Part shown: positions 19,723 through 28,301 of the stretch, in pieces
Layout: every line of letters begins with the position of its first letter
How positions within the stretch are numbered: position 1 is the stretch's first letter
Assembly: GCA_002723085.1 (NCBI GenBank)
Contig: PBNK01000042.1
Coordinates: 1 to 35,855, forward strand
Reading direction: 5' to 3'
Origin: Crocinitomicaceae bacterium
GTDB taxonomy: Bacteria > Bacteroidota > Bacteroidia > Flavobacteriales_D > Parvicellaceae
DNA length: 35,855 bases
Program-made: the position numbers and the translations under genes
Notes under the pieces: model-generated
Database searches by the model: none
What the model was told of the DNA's origin: nothing
Seen by the model: only the letters and a program-made list of their open reading frames with translations

Positions 19723-21840
19723 ATGAAATTACGACTTCTTACAACATACATTTGTTTGCTATCTTTAATCACTTGTGGACAAACCTCGAAAGAGAAAAAA
19801 GAAAATATGAGTACGCCAATGCACAAATACACCAATCAATTAATAAATGAAACTAGTCCTTACCTATTACAACACGCTCATAATCCTGTAAACTGGTATC
19901 CATGGGGTGAAGAAGCTTTAGAAAAAGCTAAAAAAGAAAATAAACCAATAATTATAAGTATTGGTTATGCGGCATGTCATTGGTGCCATGTGATGGAACA
20001 TGAAAGTTTCGAAAATGAAGATGTAGCTAGTCTTATGAATGACGATTTCATTTGCATTAAAATTGATAGAGAAGAAAGGCCCGATATTGACCAAATATAT
20101 ATGAATGCTGTTCAATTGATTAGTGGTAGAGGAGGATGGCCATTAAACTGTATTACACTCCCTGACGGTAGACCAATATATGGGGGAACTTATTTTCCAC
20201 CCGAAAACTGGATGAACCTTTTAACAAAAGTTTCCACATTCATAAAAGAATCTCCTGAAAAAGCTGAGGAACAAGCTTCAGAACTTACATATGGTATAAA
20301 CAACACTGAATTCATAACACTTAATAAAGAAAAAGCCGATTTTTCTACATTAGATTTGGATAGGATTTTTACCCATTTTGAAAAACAACTTGACCCTATA
20401 AATGGTGGAAATAAAGGAGCCCCAAAATTTCCTATGCCAGTTGGATATGAATTTTTATTGCATTACCAGCATATAATGGAAGAGTCTTCAGCACTTAATG
20501 CAGTAATGCTTACCCTTAACAAGATGGCTAATGGTGGTATTTACGATCAAATTGGTGGTGGATTTTCAAGATATTCAACAGATACATACTGGAAAGCGCC
20601 ACATTTTGAAAAAATGCTTTATGACAATGCCCAGTTGGTTAGTTTATACAGTTCAGCATACAAGGTCAATAAAGACCCGTTATTTAAAACTATTATCAAG
20701 GAAACACTAGAATTTATTAAACGCGAGTTAACATCAGAAGAAGGAGGTTTTTATTCATCTTTAGATGCTGATAGCGAAGGACAAGAAGGAAAGTTTTATG
20801 TTTGGAACTATGATGAAATTAACGAGTTAATTAATAATGAAACAGAATTGATTTGTGACTATTACAACATAGAAAAAAGTGGAAATTGGGAAAACGGACA
20901 AAACATTTTATTGAAATCAGAATCCAATTCTTCATTTATAAAAAAACACCAACTCAATGAAACAAAATGGTTAGAAAAAATTAAAAATGTAAAATCTGTT
21001 TTATTACAAGAGAGAGAAAAAAGAATTAGACCAGCACTAGACGATAAAATATTAACTTCGTGGAATGCATTAATGTTAAAAGGATATGTTGATGCCTATA
21101 GATCTTTAGATGAAATTGAATATTTAAATATTGCCCTTAAAAATGCAGATTTTATTATAAAACATTTAAAAACTAATAATTATAAGCTCTATCGAAATTT
21201 CAAAAATGGAAAAGCAACAATTAATGGATTTGCCGATGATTATGCATTTACTATTCAGGCTTTTATTTCCTTATACCAAGCAACCTTTGAAGAAAAATGG
21301 CTTAACGAAGCTAATAATTTAATGTCTTATGCATTAGATCACTTTTATGATAAAGAGAATGGCATGTTTTACTACACTTCTGACATTGACCCTTCTTTAA
21401 TAGCAAGAAAAATGGAAGTGTCAGATAATGTCATTCCATCCTCTAATTCTGAAATGGCTAAAAACCTATTTCTAATTGGAAGGTATACCTACAACAATAA
21501 GTATATAGAAATGGCAAAAAAAATGCTTAATAATGTTAAAGAAAATACCATAAAAGGCGGTTCATACTATGCAAATTGGGGAGTACTTTTAGCATGGTTT
21601 AGCGATGAAACATACGATGTTTCAATTGTAGGTGAAAAATGTAATGAAATAAGAAAAGAATTTGACAAACACTTTTTACCTAATATATTTCTATCCGGAG
21701 GAAAAAATGAAGGTAAATCGCCTCTTCTTAAAGACAAATTAATTTCAAATGAAACCACTATTTATGTTTGTCAGGATAAAGCCTGTAAATTACCTGTAAA
21801 TGATGTAAATAAAGCATTAAATCAAATAAAAGGCCAATAA
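19723..21840 (+). CDS. YyaL/SSP411 (DUF255) thioredoxin-like protein with lipoprotein-type signal
   Basis: A 705-residue member of the YyaL / spermatogenesis-associated protein 20 family. Residues 34-190 form a thioredoxin-like domain with [16 protein letters not shown] (47-62) and a CHWC redox motif (85-88). The rest is an alpha/alpha-barrel like N-acylglucosamine 2-epimerase, with [17 protein letters not shown] and [12 protein letters not shown]. The first 18 residues look like a lipoprotein signal: a hydrophobic stretch, SLIT and C18. Most family members are cytosolic and start near [12 protein letters not shown] (M29), so a shorter cytosolic form is the alternative. Its biochemical role is unknown. 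The methyltransferase gene follows after one base. Confidence 0.87.
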
Positions 21841-21841
21841 A

Positions 21842-22459
21842 ATGAATGAAATAAATACAAAAAAGCATTGGGAAAAAGTATATGAAACTAAAAATCCAAA
21901 TGAAGTAAGTTGGACACAAGCCTATCCTAAAACTTCAATTAATTTAATAAACTCATTTAAACAGCAAAAATCGGCTTCAATAATAGATATTGGTGGTGGA
22001 GATAGTCTTCTTGTAGATTTTTTATTAAAAGAAGGATATAATAACATTACAGTGTTAGACATTTCTAAAAAAGCCATTGATAGAGCTAAAAAAAGATTAG
22101 GTAAAAAAGCAAATGAAGTTAAATGGATTGTAAAAGACATAACAAATTTTGAACCTGAAAGCAATTATGACATATGGCATGACAGAGCTGCCTTTCATTT
22201 TTTAAATACTGAAAAAGACATTAAAAAATACGCTGCTATCGCAGGTAAAACAGTTTTAAAAAATCTTGTCATTGGTACTTTTTCAAATGATGGCCCTCTA
22301 AAATGTAGTGGCATAGAAATTGTACAGTATAATGAAAGAAGCATGAAAAATGTATTTAAAAATGATTTTGAAAAAATAAATTCATTTAAAGAAGACCATA
22401 CTACTCCATTTAATACAATACAAAATTTTATTTTTTGTAGCTTTAATAAAAAATTATGA
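21842..22459 (+). CDS. Class I SAM-dependent methyltransferase
   Basis: A 205-residue Rossmann methyltransferase. ASIIDIGGGDSLLVDFLL (45-62) carries motif I and TVLDISKKAIDRAK holds the acidic residue that binds the SAM ribose. YDIWHDRAAFHFLN is the usual motif IV region. The family resembles TPMT/UbiE-like small-molecule methyltransferases; the acceptor cannot be read. It begins one base after the YyaL-type gene and overlaps the metal-binding gene by four bases (ATGA), so it sits in one mRNA with a thiol and metal-handling cluster; thiol or metalloid methylation is only a guess. Confidence 0.85.
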   Translation: MNEINTKKHWEKVYETKNPNEVSWTQAYPKTSINLINSFKQQKSASIIDIGGGDSLLVDFLLKEGYNNITVLDISKKAIDRAKKRLGKKANEVKWIVKDITNFEPESNYDIWHDRAAFHFLNTEKDIKKYAAIAGKTVLKNLVIGTFSNDGPLKCSGIEIVQYNERSMKNVFKNDFEKINSFKEDHTTPFNTIQNFIFCSFNKKL

Positions 22460-22806
22460 AGATGAAAAGAGCCAAATTATTAATCGTTTTTTTGTTAGTA
22501 ACTATTGCGTTTTCAAGCAATGCACAAAGTAAAAAATTAGTTAAAGAATCTTTTAAAGTATGGGGCAAATGTGACATGTGCCAAGAAAGAATAGAGGATT
22601 TCTCATATGAAATAGAAGGAGTTAAGTTTTGCAGATGGAACATTTCTACAAAAATATTTAACGTAAAATATGACCCTAAAAAAACATCAACAGAAAAGAT
22701 TCAAAAAGCTATTGCCTCTATTGGTCACGATACTGAATTATATTCTGCTAAAGAGGAAGATTACAATAATTTACATTTTTGTTGTAAATACGAACGAAAA
22801 AAATAG
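22456..22806 (+). CDS. Exported HMA-like heavy-metal-binding protein
   Basis: A 116-residue protein with a signal peptide (MKMKRAKLLIVFLLV to about SNAQ, 1-24). The mature part is one HMA/MerP-like fold: VWGKCDMCQERIE with C39 and C42 is the metal-binding CxxC loop, and FNVKYDPKKTSTEKIQKAI fits the later beta-alpha part. It ends NNLHFCCKYER with C109-C110, a second cysteine pair that I recall in Bacteroidota HMA proteins. It should bind Cu(I), Zn(II) or a similar soft metal in the periplasm. It is coupled to the methyltransferase by overlap and lies two bases before the secreted thioredoxin-like gene. Confidence 0.82.
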   Translation: MKMKRAKLLIVFLLVTIAFSSNAQSKKLVKESFKVWGKCDMCQERIEDFSYEIEGVKFCRWNISTKIFNVKYDPKKTSTEKIQKAIASIGHDTELYSAKEEDYNNLHFCCKYERKK

Positions 22807-22808
22807 AT

Positions 22809-23579
22809 ATGAAATTATTTAAACTGCTAATAGTTATTTACTTTTTTTTTAGTTCAAATAATTCTATTTCACAAACATACGCTACAGATTTTACCGCAAA
22901 TGATTGCAACGGAACAACCCATAACTTATTTTCAGAACTAGATAGTGGGAAAGTAATTGTAATTGCTTGGGTAATGCCCTGTCTTACCTGTATTACAGAT
23001 CCATTAGCTGCATTTGCAGAAGTACAAAGTTATTCAACTTCACATCCAGATAAAGTACGTTTTTACATGGTTGATGATTATGCAAATACTAGTTGTTCTA
23101 CATTATCAAGTTGGGCCGTAAACTATGGAATGGATAATTGTACTAAGTTTTCAGACCCAACAATTAGCATGAGTGATTATGGTGTGGATGGAATGCCAAA
23201 AATTGTTGTTTTAGGTGGTCCTGATCATAAAATATTTTTTAATGAGAACAGCAGTCATCAGGGCATAGACATTGCTATTAGCCAAGCCATTAGCAGTACT
23301 GATATTTTTAACTTAAACCATTCAGTATTTAATACAAAACTTTATCCAAATCCTGTAAAAAATAATTTAACTATTGAACTTAAAAACTCCTTTTCAACAG
23401 AAATTAATTTTCAAATAATCAACATTATAGGTGAAACTATTATGTCAAAAAAAATAAATTCATTATTTCCAGTTAATGCTTTTCAAATAAATGTTAGCGA
23501 ATTAATAAATGGAGTTTATTTTATAAAAACCTCTTCAAATTCAATTGAAGAAATAAAAACTTTCATTATCTCAAAATGA
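22809..23579 (+). CDS. Secreted thioredoxin-like protein with T9SS sorting domain
   Basis: A 256-residue exported protein. A signal peptide (1-22) precedes a thioredoxin-like domain with VMPCLTC (CxxC C58-C61) and cis-proline P130 in DGMPKIVVL, plus further cysteines C33, C96 and C111. Residues 175-256 form a T9SS type A sorting domain: KLYPNPVKNNLTIEL, then GETIMSKK and NGVYFIKTSS. It should cross the outer membrane and be attached to or released from the surface. Position 57 is P where thioredoxins have W. It is two bases after the HMA gene and overlaps the barrel gene by four bases. A surface thiol or metal role is inferred. Confidence 0.84.
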   Translation: MKLFKLLIVIYFFFSSNNSISQTYATDFTANDCNGTTHNLFSELDSGKVIVIAWVMPCLTCITDPLAAFAEVQSYSTSHPDKVRFYMVDDYANTSCSTLSSWAVNYGMDNCTKFSDPTISMSDYGVDGMPKIVVLGGPDHKIFFNENSSHQGIDIAISQAISSTDIFNLNHSVFNTKLYPNPVKNNLTIELKNSFSTEINFQIINIIGETIMSKKINSLFPVNAFQINVSELINGVYFIKTSSNSIEEIKTFIISK

Positions 23580-24598
23580 GATACATATTAATATCATTAC
23601 TTTCTTTATTGATTTCAAATAAAATCCTTTGCCAAGGATGTTGTTCAGGTGGTTCTGGAAGTCCGATTGCAGGTGGAGCGGCAACGGGTGTTTTGCAAAA
23701 AAACCAAATGGAAGCTTCAGCAAATTATCAGTTTATTAAAAGTGAAAAATTTTATACAGAAAATAGAGATACTAATGCTTTATTTGACAATCTTAATAGC
23801 AATTACATTTTCTATAGAATGGATTATGGTTTTAGTAAAAAACTAACTCTTTCTTTAGCTGCTGGTTACTTTTTGAATAAATCATTAATCGAACTAAATC
23901 AAAATGATACTATTAGTTCTAGAGGGATGGGCGATATTATATTTTTACCCAGATATGACATCTATAATAAAACTAATAATAATATAAGAACTGAATTCAC
24001 AATTGGTTTAGGACTAAAAATACCCTTGGGTTCTCATACTGATTCTATTTTAATGTTTTCTAACCCAATTATAGGTGATATATACGCTTTATCTCCACCT
24101 ACAGTTCAACCTACTAATGGCTCTAATGACATTATGTTTTACTCCTTTTTATTTAGAGATTATATAACTCATAAAATAAGGATTTTCAGCAATTTATTAT
24201 ATATAAAAAGAGGATACAATTCATTAGATCAAAAATTTGGAGACTATGCCAGTATAGGATTATTTATAGGTAAAACATTCAATAGAAAATTAGGATTGAC
24301 TGCACAAATAAAAGGAGAATGGATTGGTGAAATAAAAGCTAAAGATGGGGTAGATTTAATTGCTGAATATAACATTGACATTGCTTCAACAGGTAGCAAA
24401 AAAATATTCTTTATTCCTCAAATAAGCTACATTAAAAAATCATTTGTTTTATTCACAACTTGTGAAATGCCTTTGTATCAATTTGTAAATGGAACCCAAA
24501 TTGGATCTCAATGGCAAATTACAACAGGTTTTAACTATAGATTTATGGCTAAAAGTCCTGAAATTAAAACAGATGAATTCAACATTAAATCAAAATGA
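23576..24598 (+). CDS. Outer-membrane beta-barrel with N-terminal Cys-Cys motif
   Basis: A 340-residue protein. The signal peptide ends near ILCQ, and the mature protein would begin GCCSGGSGSPIAGGAATG (21-38). The rest alternates polar and hydrophobic strands, as in a transmembrane barrel (MEASANYQFI, LTLSLAAGYF, TEFTIGLGLKIPLG), and ends in Phe-Met with a short polar tail. I recall this start in Bacteroidota proteins annotated as transporters or outer-membrane proteins near metal genes, but no function is proven. It overlaps the secreted thioredoxin-like gene by four bases (ATGA) and closes the run. It converges with the CotH gene, with five bases between stops. Confidence 0.75.
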   Translation: MRYILISLLSLLISNKILCQGCCSGGSGSPIAGGAATGVLQKNQMEASANYQFIKSEKFYTENRDTNALFDNLNSNYIFYRMDYGFSKKLTLSLAAGYFLNKSLIELNQNDTISSRGMGDIIFLPRYDIYNKTNNNIRTEFTIGLGLKIPLGSHTDSILMFSNPIIGDIYALSPPTVQPTNGSNDIMFYSFLFRDYITHKIRIFSNLLYIKRGYNSLDQKFGDYASIGLFIGKTFNRKLGLTAQIKGEWIGEIKAKDGVDLIAEYNIDIASTGSKKIFFIPQISYIKKSFVLFTTCEMPLYQFVNGTQIGSQWQITTGFNYRFMAKSPEIKTDEFNIKSK

Positions 24599-24603
24599 AT
24601 TTT

Positions 24604-26616
24604 TTATTGTTTAATGGCTTTTAAAACAGCTTTTCCTAACTCATGCTCAACTTCAAAAATGTATAATCCCGGAACCATGTCTATTAATGAAACTTTTGAG
24701 GAGTTAAAATCCTTTTGAAATTTTCCAATTTGATCATAAACTTTTATGTTTAAAATTTTGATATTATTTGAAGATGAAATAGTAACAATCTCATCAGTTG
24801 GATTGGGGTAAATATTAAAAACAGGTTCATTTATAAGATGTTGAGGAATACCAACATTGGGGCAATTACCTGGCATATTAGCATCAAGCCAATTTAATCG
24901 ATCTATTATCCAGTTTTTAAATTTTAATAATTCTCCTTCATAAGTGTTGGGTTGAATCCCAATTTCTGGTGTACCAACATTTATTCCTAAAATGGGCCAT
25001 CTTACATAATGTCTTTCTTGAGCTTCGTCTAAAACATTTCCTAAAGAATCTATAAATTGAAATAGGTTTGAGGTATCTAAAACTGTATTTCTTAAATTAA
25101 AATATCGACAAGAAAGATCATTGGCAAAAGTAGAATCTTGCAATAATCTTATATACCAACCTGGAGGTTTAACATCTGATGGTCCAGAATAATCGTGTCT
25201 CCACCCTGCCCCATTAAGCATAGCAGAACTGTGATCTTTAAAAGCCCAATCAAAATCCCAAACAGGACCAGCATAAATTAAAGAATCTTTACTGTCTTTG
25301 TCTTTATGAAAATTTCTACTTTTCTTAAACCCATCTACATTTCTAGCAAATTCATTTACAATAAAATAGTCGATAAACGAACGTGTATTAATAAAAGGCC
25401 TATACCCCAAAATAGGGTCTTCAAAATTACTTCCCCACAAAGCATCTTCAAATGCACTGACTTTTTGTTGAATGTATGATTTTTGAGGTATAGATATGTC
25501 ATCTATATCAGGATAATTATAGACATATCGAACATCATCATTTGGAAAATTTGGATTAGTATAATTCGATAACCAACTGTTGTTCCAATCCCAATAATCA
25601 ATTCTAAAAATATAACCTCCTGTTAAACTATCCCCAGCGTTATCATCTAAATCTAATTTTGCAATATCAACCCTACCTTTATCTCTTTTTATTTTTTCTG
25701 TAAATACATAAATTCCATTATAAATAGAATCAATAATTACCTCACATAATTTTGTTCTTGGAGCATAATGTCCCATTTTGGTAAAAATATCAAAAGCCAA
25801 AATGTTTCTTATAAACGTTTTATCGTTATAATTAGCAAGTAAAATCCAATCGTTTTCTTTAGGCATATCAAATAGAGAAACGTTATTGTTTTCTCCAAAC
25901 AAATCTCTAGTTTCAATGCCAAATGGTTTTTGTGGTAAAGTAGAAGAATAAGACCCTCTTATTTCAATACCAGCTATTCCATCATAAACATTAGCAAAAT
26001 CATACGTATGATTAAATAAGCCTAAACCTCTATCTATAATTTTAAAGTCAACATTTATTTTAGGTTCATCTACAATTTGTTGATTGTTAGTTTGTATTAA
26101 AACTAAAGGTAAATTAGAAGAATCTGGAGCATTTAAACCAATAGAAGATTCAATATTTAATTGATAATTCCCATTAGAGTTTGAACTGTAACCGTCTACT
26201 ACAATATAATAAGTTGTATTTGGCTCTAAAAGCTGAGCATTTATACTTGAATTATAAGGTGCTGAATAGGAAGGGGATTGACAACCGTCCTCCTGACATC
26301 CGACAGGACTTCCATTGCAATTATTTTCAAAAATATACAATTGAGAATCATAATCAGTTACGTCTTGACACAGACTAATATCAACATATATTGGAGAAGA
26401 ACCATTGTTAAATTCATAAACAATATCTTTAGCACCTCCTTGATTGCCATAATCAGGACAACTTGCATAATAATCATCATTTGCAATATTGGTATTCCCA
26501 ACAAAAACATAAGGAATAGAAGGTATTAAAATAGCTGAACTACAATTGTCTCCATTAATTTGAGCAGAAAATAATTCTACAAATAATAATAAAGTAATAA
26601 AAAAGAGATTTTTCAA
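24604..26616 (-). CDS. Secreted CotH-kinase-family protein with T9SS sorting domain
   Basis: A 670-residue exported protein. The start is TTG at 26616: it is followed by a signal peptide (KNLFFITLLLFVELFSAQ) and the only other upstream codons run into a stop. Residues about 22-155 resemble a pre-peptidase C-terminal/adhesion-type beta domain with DYDSQLYIFENNC and TTYYIVVDGYS. Residues about 200-575 are the CotH domain: GGYIFRIDYWDW (333-344), RSFIDYFIVNEFARN and PVWDFDWAF (451-459), with D454 and D456 probably at the active site. Residues 600-670 are a T9SS type A tail (FNIYPNPTDE to FEVEHELGKAVL). CotH proteins are atypical protein kinases in Bacillus spores; here the target is unknown. It is third in the rhodanese/MORN operon. 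Confidence 0.83.
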   Translation of the reverse strand: MKNLFFITLLLFVELFSAQINGDNCSSAILIPSIPYVFVGNTNIANDDYYASCPDYGNQGGAKDIVYEFNNGSSPIYVDISLCQDVTDYDSQLYIFENNCNGSPVGCQEDGCQSPSYSAPYNSSINAQLLEPNTTYYIVVDGYSSNSNGNYQLNIESSIGLNAPDSSNLPLVLIQTNNQQIVDEPKINVDFKIIDRGLGLFNHTYDFANVYDGIAGIEIRGSYSSTLPQKPFGIETRDLFGENNNVSLFDMPKENDWILLANYNDKTFIRNILAFDIFTKMGHYAPRTKLCEVIIDSIYNGIYVFTEKIKRDKGRVDIAKLDLDDNAGDSLTGGYIFRIDYWDWNNSWLSNYTNPNFPNDDVRYVYNYPDIDDISIPQKSYIQQKVSAFEDALWGSNFEDPILGYRPFINTRSFIDYFIVNEFARNVDGFKKSRNFHKDKDSKDSLIYAGPVWDFDWAFKDHSSAMLNGAGWRHDYSGPSDVKPPGWYIRLLQDSTFANDLSCRYFNLRNTVLDTSNLFQFIDSLGNVLDEAQERHYVRWPILGINVGTPEIGIQPNTYEGELLKFKNWIIDRLNWLDANMPGNCPNVGIPQHLINEPVFNIYPNPTDEIVTISSSNNIKILNIKVYDQIGKFQKDFNSSKVSLIDMVPGLYIFEVEHELGKAVLKAIKQ

Positions 26617-27545: not shown

Positions 27546-28301
27546 TTATTTAAGCGATATTATCATATTTAATAAATGTGTTTTTTCAATAAAACCTGCT
27601 TGTCTCCATCGTTCAGCTCCATTTAACATCCCAACAAATGTAGGAACACTTTGTATATTGAATTGTTTTGATATATCTAAATTATTATCAAGGTCAATTT
27701 TTACAAAATTCACATCCCCTTTTAATGAATCTGATATTTCAGATAAAATAGGATTCATTTGTTTACAAGGCAAACACCATTTAGTTTGAAAACAAATAAC
27801 AGTAGGAACATTAGTACTGTTAAGCATTTCATTAAATTGTTCAATAGAAAATTCTTGTGTAACAGGTTTAATAATTGAATCCTGTTCTATAGTATAGCCA
27901 TTGTTGTACCAAGCTTGAATTCCTCCTGTTAAGTTATAAACTTCTTTAAACCCAATTGATAAAAGTTCTTGAGCTGCCTTAGCACTTCTACCACCCATTT
28001 TACAATAAACAAAAACAGGTTTATCTTTTTGTATGAAGTTTATTTTTTGGTTAAAATTTTCATCATACAAGTTAATGAAACTAGCACCATGTATATAGCC
28101 CTGTCTTATTTCTTCTTCCGTCCTAACATCCAATAATATACCGTTGGACTTACTAAGTTTAGCTTCAAAAACAGAAGCTTCTAAATGTTGTATTATATTT
28201 GTTTTAATGATTTTATCAACATTTTTTGAAGAAGAATTTGAGCAAGAAATTCCAAGTATAGTAATTGATAAGAATAGATGAATATTTAAAAAAAAGTTCA
28301 A
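27546..28301 (-). CDS. Lipoprotein with rhodanese and thioredoxin domains
   Basis: A 251-residue lipoprotein: hydrophobic signal, lipobox LGISC with C20. Residues about 38-138 form a rhodanese domain (LLDVRTEEEI, active-site loop CKMGGRS with C100, GGIQAW), which could move sulfane sulfur. Residues about 150-250 are a thioredoxin domain with WCLPC (175-179) and cis-Pro P220 in SVPTFVGM. The two catalytic domains in one anchored protein suggest periplasmic sulfur or disulfide chemistry. TTG at 28301 is the only workable start before the signal sequence. It leads the operon with the MORN and CotH genes; an exact -7 box lies 25 bases upstream. Confidence 0.87.
   Translation of the reverse strand: MNFFLNIHLFLSITILGISCSNSSSKNVDKIIKTNIIQHLEASVFEAKLSKSNGILLDVRTEEEIRQGYIHGASFINLYDENFNQKINFIQKDKPVFVYCKMGGRSAKAAQELLSIGFKEVYNLTGGIQAWYNNGYTIEQDSIIKPVTQEFSIEQFNEMLNSTNVPTVICFQTKWCLPCKQMNPILSEISDSLKGDVNFVKIDLDNNLDISKQFNIQSVPTFVGMLNGAERWRQAGFIEKTHLLNMIISLK

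Follow-up and report, generated by a model that had tools for sequence, protein, structure and literature searches.

Genomic Evidence for HMA-TRX-BAR, a Probable Outer-Envelope Copper-Handling Module of Bacteroidota

Gene Organization of the Locus

The window (the whole 35,855-nt stretch of DNA analyzed, a contig of a Crocinitomicaceae bacterium) carries a run of closely spaced forward-strand genes encoding a class I SAM methyltransferase, an exported HMA-like metal-binding protein (HMA), a protein with a ResA/Sco-like thioredoxin domain and a C-terminal T9SS sorting domain (TRX), and a predicted outer-membrane beta-barrel (BAR) (Table 1). By their ORF coordinates, the methyltransferase and HMA genes, and likewise TRX and BAR, share ATGA overlaps, and HMA and TRX are separated by 2 nt. 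A preliminary description had these four genes overlapping or at most 2 nt apart, and the reading frames, found at or next to its positions, have this spacing. The stop of a gene for a DUF255 lipoprotein lies 1 nt ahead of the methyltransferase start. Because the successive spacings are 1 nt, ATGA, 2 nt, and ATGA, the five genes from DUF255 to BAR are probably co-transcribed, and the transcription unit probably starts one gene earlier than the methyltransferase, at the DUF255 lipoprotein. A promoter and terminator scan gave no excess over shuffles. The DUF255/DsbH-like protein has a lipoprotein-type signal and is not conserved with the HMA-TRX-BAR core.

The methyltransferase is translationally coupled to HMA here and lies outside the conserved unit. 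Its earlier inclusion as a core part had to be abandoned: among 46 BAR genomes scanned, 13 have the methyltransferase, which adjoins BAR only in the window. Relatives of the window methyltransferase are near BAR in L055, L057, L058, L076, and L100 (named loci from other genomes; see below). The gene order in L055, L058, L076, and L100 is MBL-rhodanese, methyltransferase relative, small Cys-rich protein, TonB receptor, HMA, TRX, BAR.

Directly downstream of the window operon, on the opposite strand, is a gene for a T9SS CotH protein; in L012 and L013, a protein that by eye is CotH-like and T9SS-type is likewise encoded immediately before the triad. The window additionally encodes a lipoprotein-type protein in which a rhodanese domain is fused to a thioredoxin domain.

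Table 1. Positions of the features discussed, in the window and in named loci of other genomes (locus:start-end).
Feature	Position	Strand	Match or motif
DUF255 / Thioredox_DsbH lipoprotein	19723-21840	+	PF03190 1.2e-69; CHWC
Methyltransferase, class I SAM	21842-22459	+	PF13649 5.6e-10
HMA, exported HMA-like metal-binding protein	22456-22806	+	TIGR00003 1.3e-9, Pfam HMA 6.8e-5, both below curated cut-offs
TRX, ResA/Sco-like thioredoxin domain and C-terminal T9SS sorting domain	22809-23579	+	PF18962 1.5e-14
BAR, predicted outer-membrane 12-strand beta-barrel	23576-24598	+	AF2 model, COG4313-like fold
T9SS CotH protein	24604-26616	-	
Rhodanese-thioredoxin fusion	27546-28301	-	lipoprotein-type
CotH-like T9SS protein	L012:12395-13927		
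Distant BAR relative	L019:9338-10285		ACDICNMD start
Remote BAR relative	L017:3341-5405		
Remote BAR relative	L018:1531-3595		
Small HMA-like protein	L054:3840-4409		NMxCxRC
Small HMA-like protein	L075:4473-5042		NMxCxRC
Small HMA-like protein	L127:9934-10503		NMxCxRC
Small HMA-like protein	L110:4551-5108		NMxCxRC
Small HMA-like protein	L111:3767-4324		NMxCxRC
Small HMA-like protein	L114:3064-3600		NMxCxRC
Small HMA-like protein	L116:5604-6185		NMxCxRC
Small HMA-like protein	L118:9325-9897		NMxCxRC

Sequence and Predicted Structure of the Three Proteins

BAR of the window has no Pfam or NCBIfam match (Pfam E up to 1). Its AF2 model (pLDDT 83) is a barrel of 12 strands with an N-terminal segment before strand 1, as in COG4313 channels, and the closest fold is the COG4313 channel 4rl8 (Z 26.4; rmsd 2.3 over 255 residues). 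In such channels, the N-terminal segment ahead of the first strand sits in the barrel lumen (PMC4493636). The PF13557 (Phenol_MetA_deg) profile does not match the window BAR at E 1, and its match to the BAR homologue in L095 (E 0.02) is below the cut-off (15.4 vs. 22 bits); the Pfam CopB profile gave no BAR match at E up to 1. PcoB is not among the fold matches listed for BAR, an absence that constitutes no evidence.

The most conserved part of BAR is the N-terminal segment Q(G)CC[SAG]GG...AGG (residues 20-43), in which C22 and C23, the only invariant cysteines, are retained in all of 50 homologues. Because the named loci were seeded partly with QGCCSGG, which could bias the motif, conservation was re-measured on 28 barrels recovered with a whole-length profile; it is 0.89 for the Cys-Cys segment vs. 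0.69 for the barrel. Seed bias is rejected as the source of the motif: the Cys pair is present in 100% of these 28 barrels, and QSCC and QCC variants appear. The predicted confidence of the segment is low (AF2, pLDDT <50), and for this reason its location in the pore is something we only infer.

In HMA, TRX, and BAR alike, the signal peptide is followed by Gln, as described by the Bacteroidetes Q-rule (PMC5837995), and the mature BAR thus probably begins pyroGlu-GCCSGG. For the mature N-terminus GCCSGGSG proposed in the preliminary description, the Cys-Cys segment therefore stands and the start point does not, Q(pyroGlu)GCCSGG being likelier by the Q-rule. A lipoprotein reading of the Cys pair is unlikely, since position -3 lacks the lipobox Leu and the Q-rule context fits signal peptidase I.

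Three more divergent barrels were noted. The L019 barrel, a distant relative of BAR (hhalign probability 96%, E 5e-9), is encoded beside MbnP-like and MbnH-like genes. Remote relatives in L017 and L018 start with QACCSSGTPLSAQ or QACCSAGTPLSAQ, and the same conserved gene (DUF3179-like by eye) comes next after both.

The window HMA has a signal peptide, GKCDMC near the mature N-terminus, and a terminal CCKYER, in agreement with its earlier characterization as an exported HMA-like CxxC protein ending in a Cys pair. The metal site is invariant as CxMC in five homologues, and the C-terminal Cys pair (CCxYxR) is likewise invariant in the HMA homologue set. Matches to HMA and CopZ-type models are weak, and because the scores are under the curated cut-offs (Pfam PF00403, 23.6 vs. 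24.8 bits; NCBIfam TIGR00003, 38.1 vs. 62 bits) we file the protein as HMA-like; the homologue in L130 passes the Pfam cut-off (35.3 bits). A profile of the operon HMA, built from four of the five BAR-bearing family members plus G053, gave >185 bits among 60 relatives only in those five, of which G031 is the independent case. Against the same profile, the fused HMA copy in G053 scored 147 bits, and the general HMA paralogue, which most of the 60 relatives have, about 110 bits or less. The operon HMA therefore forms a subclass of its own.

TRX comprises a thioredoxin domain (about residues 22-168) and a T9SS sorting domain (Por_Secre_tail) that is over the cut-off in two profiles (PF18962, 54.5 vs. 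27 bits; TIGR04183, 34.2 vs. 23 bits), and it contains MPCLTC, in line with its earlier description as a surface-secreted thioredoxin-like protein. The AF2 model (pLDDT 90.6) has a ResA/TlpA-like fold, as indicated by the score against ResA (Z 16.2, vs. 13.8 against Sco1), C58xxC61, and M129-P130. The CxxxC of Sco proteins is absent, all of 50 TRX sequences having CxxC. Residues C33, C58, C61, and C96 are invariant in 50 homologues, and M129-P130 and H140 are near-invariant in an alignment of 70 sequences; these conserved Cys, Met, and His residues are common to BAR-linked and BAR-free copies of TRX. Because the residue preceding cis-Pro neighbors the CxxC in thioredoxins, C58, C61, and M129 could form a soft-metal site. 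Since the cysteines of BAR, TRX, and HMA are invariant in the homologue sets, chance is excluded as an explanation for them.

Linkage and Gene Fusions Across Bacteroidota

Among the 60 relatives, a clear BAR is present in five genomes of the window's family, the window included. Four have the order HMA-TRX-BAR; in G031, contig ends interrupt the operon. In G053 (L096), a more distant genome of the order, BAR and HMA form one protein of 455 aa, with TRX before it.

Profile scans yielded two larger sets: 42 genomes with a strong BAR out of 395 Bacteroidia genomes, and, from genome contigs, 53 strong named loci, all from Bacteroidota MAGs except one labeled only 'bacterium'. In 39 of the 42 genomes, representing 17 families, BAR has TRX no more than 3 kb away (expected 0.1). 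In 52/53 named loci, TRX is directly upstream of BAR, a count that includes two loci interrupted by the contig end and one copy that is truncated; in L090, one gene lies between TRX and BAR. HMA is immediately upstream of TRX in 22/53 named loci and fused to the BAR C-terminus in three (L095, L096, and L098), and about half have no adjacent HMA. Within 10 kb of BAR, HMA occurs in 8/42 genomes (expected 0.29, P 4e-10) and an unfused heavy-metal-binding domain (HMBD, PF19335) in 12/42 (expected 0.54, P 5e-14). The P values presuppose that genes are placed at random and that the genomes are independent; broken contigs reduce the counts, and common ancestry exaggerates the significance, but the signal is present in 17 families. 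Furthermore, in 23 of the 42 genomes (ten families), the BAR reading frame ends in an HMBD: the reading-frame lengths of the HMBD matches agree with the BAR frames, and PF19335 was confirmed in L130, with YVCPMHPEVTSAVPAKCPKCGMDLEKKK at the end of the barrel as an example. Barrel and TRX genes were neither without linkage nor mostly apart from metal genes, and the view of HMA, TRX, and BAR as a conserved linked unit is borne out by these counts.

A reading of the locus as chance, or as generic clustering of exported genes with no common function, could appeal to the richness of Bacteroidota genomes in T9SS proteins and HMA genes, and to the operon-unrelated HMA copies in most of the 60 relatives. 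It is ruled out, however, by class-wide linkage one to two orders of magnitude above random placement and extending over 17 families, by the gene order in the named loci, and by the gene fusions, which leave it a very small probability.

At its C-terminus, the BAR family bears one or the other of two metal-binding domains that are unrelated to each other, and the window form has HMA as a separate protein. These HMA and HMBD fusions speak most strongly for a role of the barrel with metal; fusions and linkage are established directly, as are the conservation of ligand residues, the predicted folds, and the export signals. As a control, the thiol gene AhpC/TSA occurs near BAR in 1/42 genomes (expected 0.39), both figures referring to the matches listed. 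Linkage of MbnP to BAR is not significant (1/42 genomes), and that of multicopper oxidase to BAR itself is weak (2/42). It is the BAR-free TRX copies that the oxidase accompanies: in 16/32 genomes they adjoin one (expected 0.25, P 1e-28 under the same assumptions). The one oxidase tested beside a BAR-free TRX has a T9SS tail.

The same proteins might instead serve thiol maintenance: TRX would be a surface disulfide reductase or oxidase for copper-exposed surface proteins (e.g., T9SS multicopper oxidases) or for the barrel, and BAR would pass a thiol or other small molecule. This would suit the TRX fold, which is nearest to the ResA/TlpA thiol oxidoreductases, the presence of CxxC rather than the Sco CxxxC, and the link between COG4313 channels and hydrophobic substrates (PMC4493636). 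Yet BAR is fused to two unrelated metal-binding domains, and thiol genes (AhpC/TSA) are without linkage to BAR among the matches listed, such that these two roles, taken jointly, are unlikely.

Copper Context

In L128, L129, and L130, and also in L075, TRX-BAR ends an RND operon of the CusA/CusB/CusC type, with a CusA/CzcA-family RND pump, CusB-like adaptors, and an OEP channel. In L127, the neighbors of TRX-BAR are a gene for a multicopper oxidase of the copper-resistance type and one for a small HMA-like/AraC protein. Together with the BAR-free TRX copies beside multicopper oxidases, this gives two settings that differ in their partners and are each tied to copper genes, so that copper is the best guess for the metal, with silver and other soft metals possible; HMA and HMBD domains occur in Ag, Zn, Cd, and Hg systems as well. 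The preliminary proposal of metal handling, with copper as a guess, thus finds support, most probably for copper, in the HMA and HMBD fusions, the unfused HMBD genes, and the Cus-type and oxidase neighbors.

Proteins of ~190 aa with an N-terminal, HMA-like NMxCxRC recur beside TRX, at barrel and oxidase loci alike (Table 1). Both of those tested have an AraC-type HTH match, making them candidate metal regulators.

Searches of the window genome, which is 95% complete, found neither a multicopper oxidase nor an HMBD protein nor a heavy-metal P-type ATPase; the ATPase search gave a match in all 14 control genomes. A second HMA protein and one MbnP are present. Because this genome is without other recognized copper tolerance genes, the case for copper in the window organism rests on homologues, and that for detoxification on relatives. 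Additionally, because the window operon is no add-on to a known detoxification set, copper acquisition is a possible, if doubtful, role, by which the barrel would admit copper, the surface TRX would reduce or capture it, and HMA would carry it to periplasmic cuproenzymes. The gene content of the window genome is consistent with acquisition, as are the TonB-dependent receptor directly before HMA in several loci and the reported import of copper by PcoB, a barrel of a copper-defense operon (PMC9210255), but the commonest recognized neighbors of the module are Cus-type efflux pumps, HMBD proteins, and multicopper oxidases.

Proposed Function

On the evidence of gene content and sequence, HMA-TRX-BAR is probably an outer-envelope copper-handling module of Bacteroidota. 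BAR would be a COG4313-like outer-membrane channel, with the N-terminal Cys-Cys segment in or at the periplasmic pore mouth as a soft-metal ligand or gate. Its periplasmic partner would be a Cu(I)-binding domain, provided as a separate HMA, a fused HMA, or a fused HMBD. Outside the cell, the T9SS-exported TRX may accept the metal, or set the redox state of either copper or the barrel thiols, by means of its CxxC, the Met before cis-Pro, the extra Cys pair, and the His. Copper tolerance by outward transfer would be the favored direction, because the module accompanies copper detoxification genes in many genomes. It is the identity of the metal, its binding, its passage, and its direction that we infer.

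Tentatively, the module might operate as a trans-outer-membrane Cu(I) relay, from the metal domain, either periplasmic or fused to the barrel, to the Cys-Cys gate in a COG4313-type barrel and on to the T9SS-displayed TRX, which would act as a cuproprotein outside; this idea is compatible with all the data. If true, copper would follow a pathway that relies on type IX secretion for its surface step, and BAR would be a new family of barrels for metals. Copper passage across the outer membrane of Bacteroidota is hardly known. In the open-licence literature, we found no description that links copper to a T9SS thioredoxin or to barrels of Bacteroidota; for a marine relative, the genes listed in a genome survey comprise those for a TonB receptor, Sco proteins, an oxidase, and RND pumps, with no barrel of this kind (PMC11213822). 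BAR is a defined family of proteins for which Pfam has no entry and which is repeatedly fused to two unrelated metal domains, and the surface TRX family is common to barrel loci and multicopper oxidases with T9SS signals. Outer-membrane copper traffic in Bacteroidota thereby becomes directly testable.

Comparison With Known Systems

The nearest known system is PcoA/PcoB (CopA/CopB) of Proteobacteria, in which, as here, an outer-membrane barrel is paired with copper proteins. PcoB has been reported both as importing copper (PMC9210255) and as acting within efflux (PMC12509749), and its disordered N-terminal ligand segment matters for copper resistance (PMC12509749). Unlike PcoB, BAR has no CopB Pfam match, and its ligand segment is Cys-Cys/Gly rather than His/Met-rich; furthermore, the partner of BAR is a T9SS thioredoxin-like protein, and metal domains are fused to the barrel. 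The COG4313/Phenol_MetA_deg channels (Pput2725, 4rl8) and FapF have the 12-strand fold in common with BAR, but the window BAR lacks a PF13557 match, and the members known so far have been linked with hydrophobic substrates or with the export of amyloid. ResA/TlpA and Sco proteins share the thioredoxin domain fold, CxxC, and cis-Pro with TRX, which differs in having a T9SS sorting domain, four invariant Cys, and Met before cis-Pro, and in lacking the Sco CxxxC. With regard to CusCFBA, HMBD and CusB/CusA-type genes are directly upstream of TRX-BAR in several genomes, whereas the window locus has no RND pump, and BAR comes as a second outer-membrane protein in addition to the CusC-like one. Thus, HMA-TRX-BAR resembles PcoA/PcoB-type systems in kind, and by family it is none of those tested.
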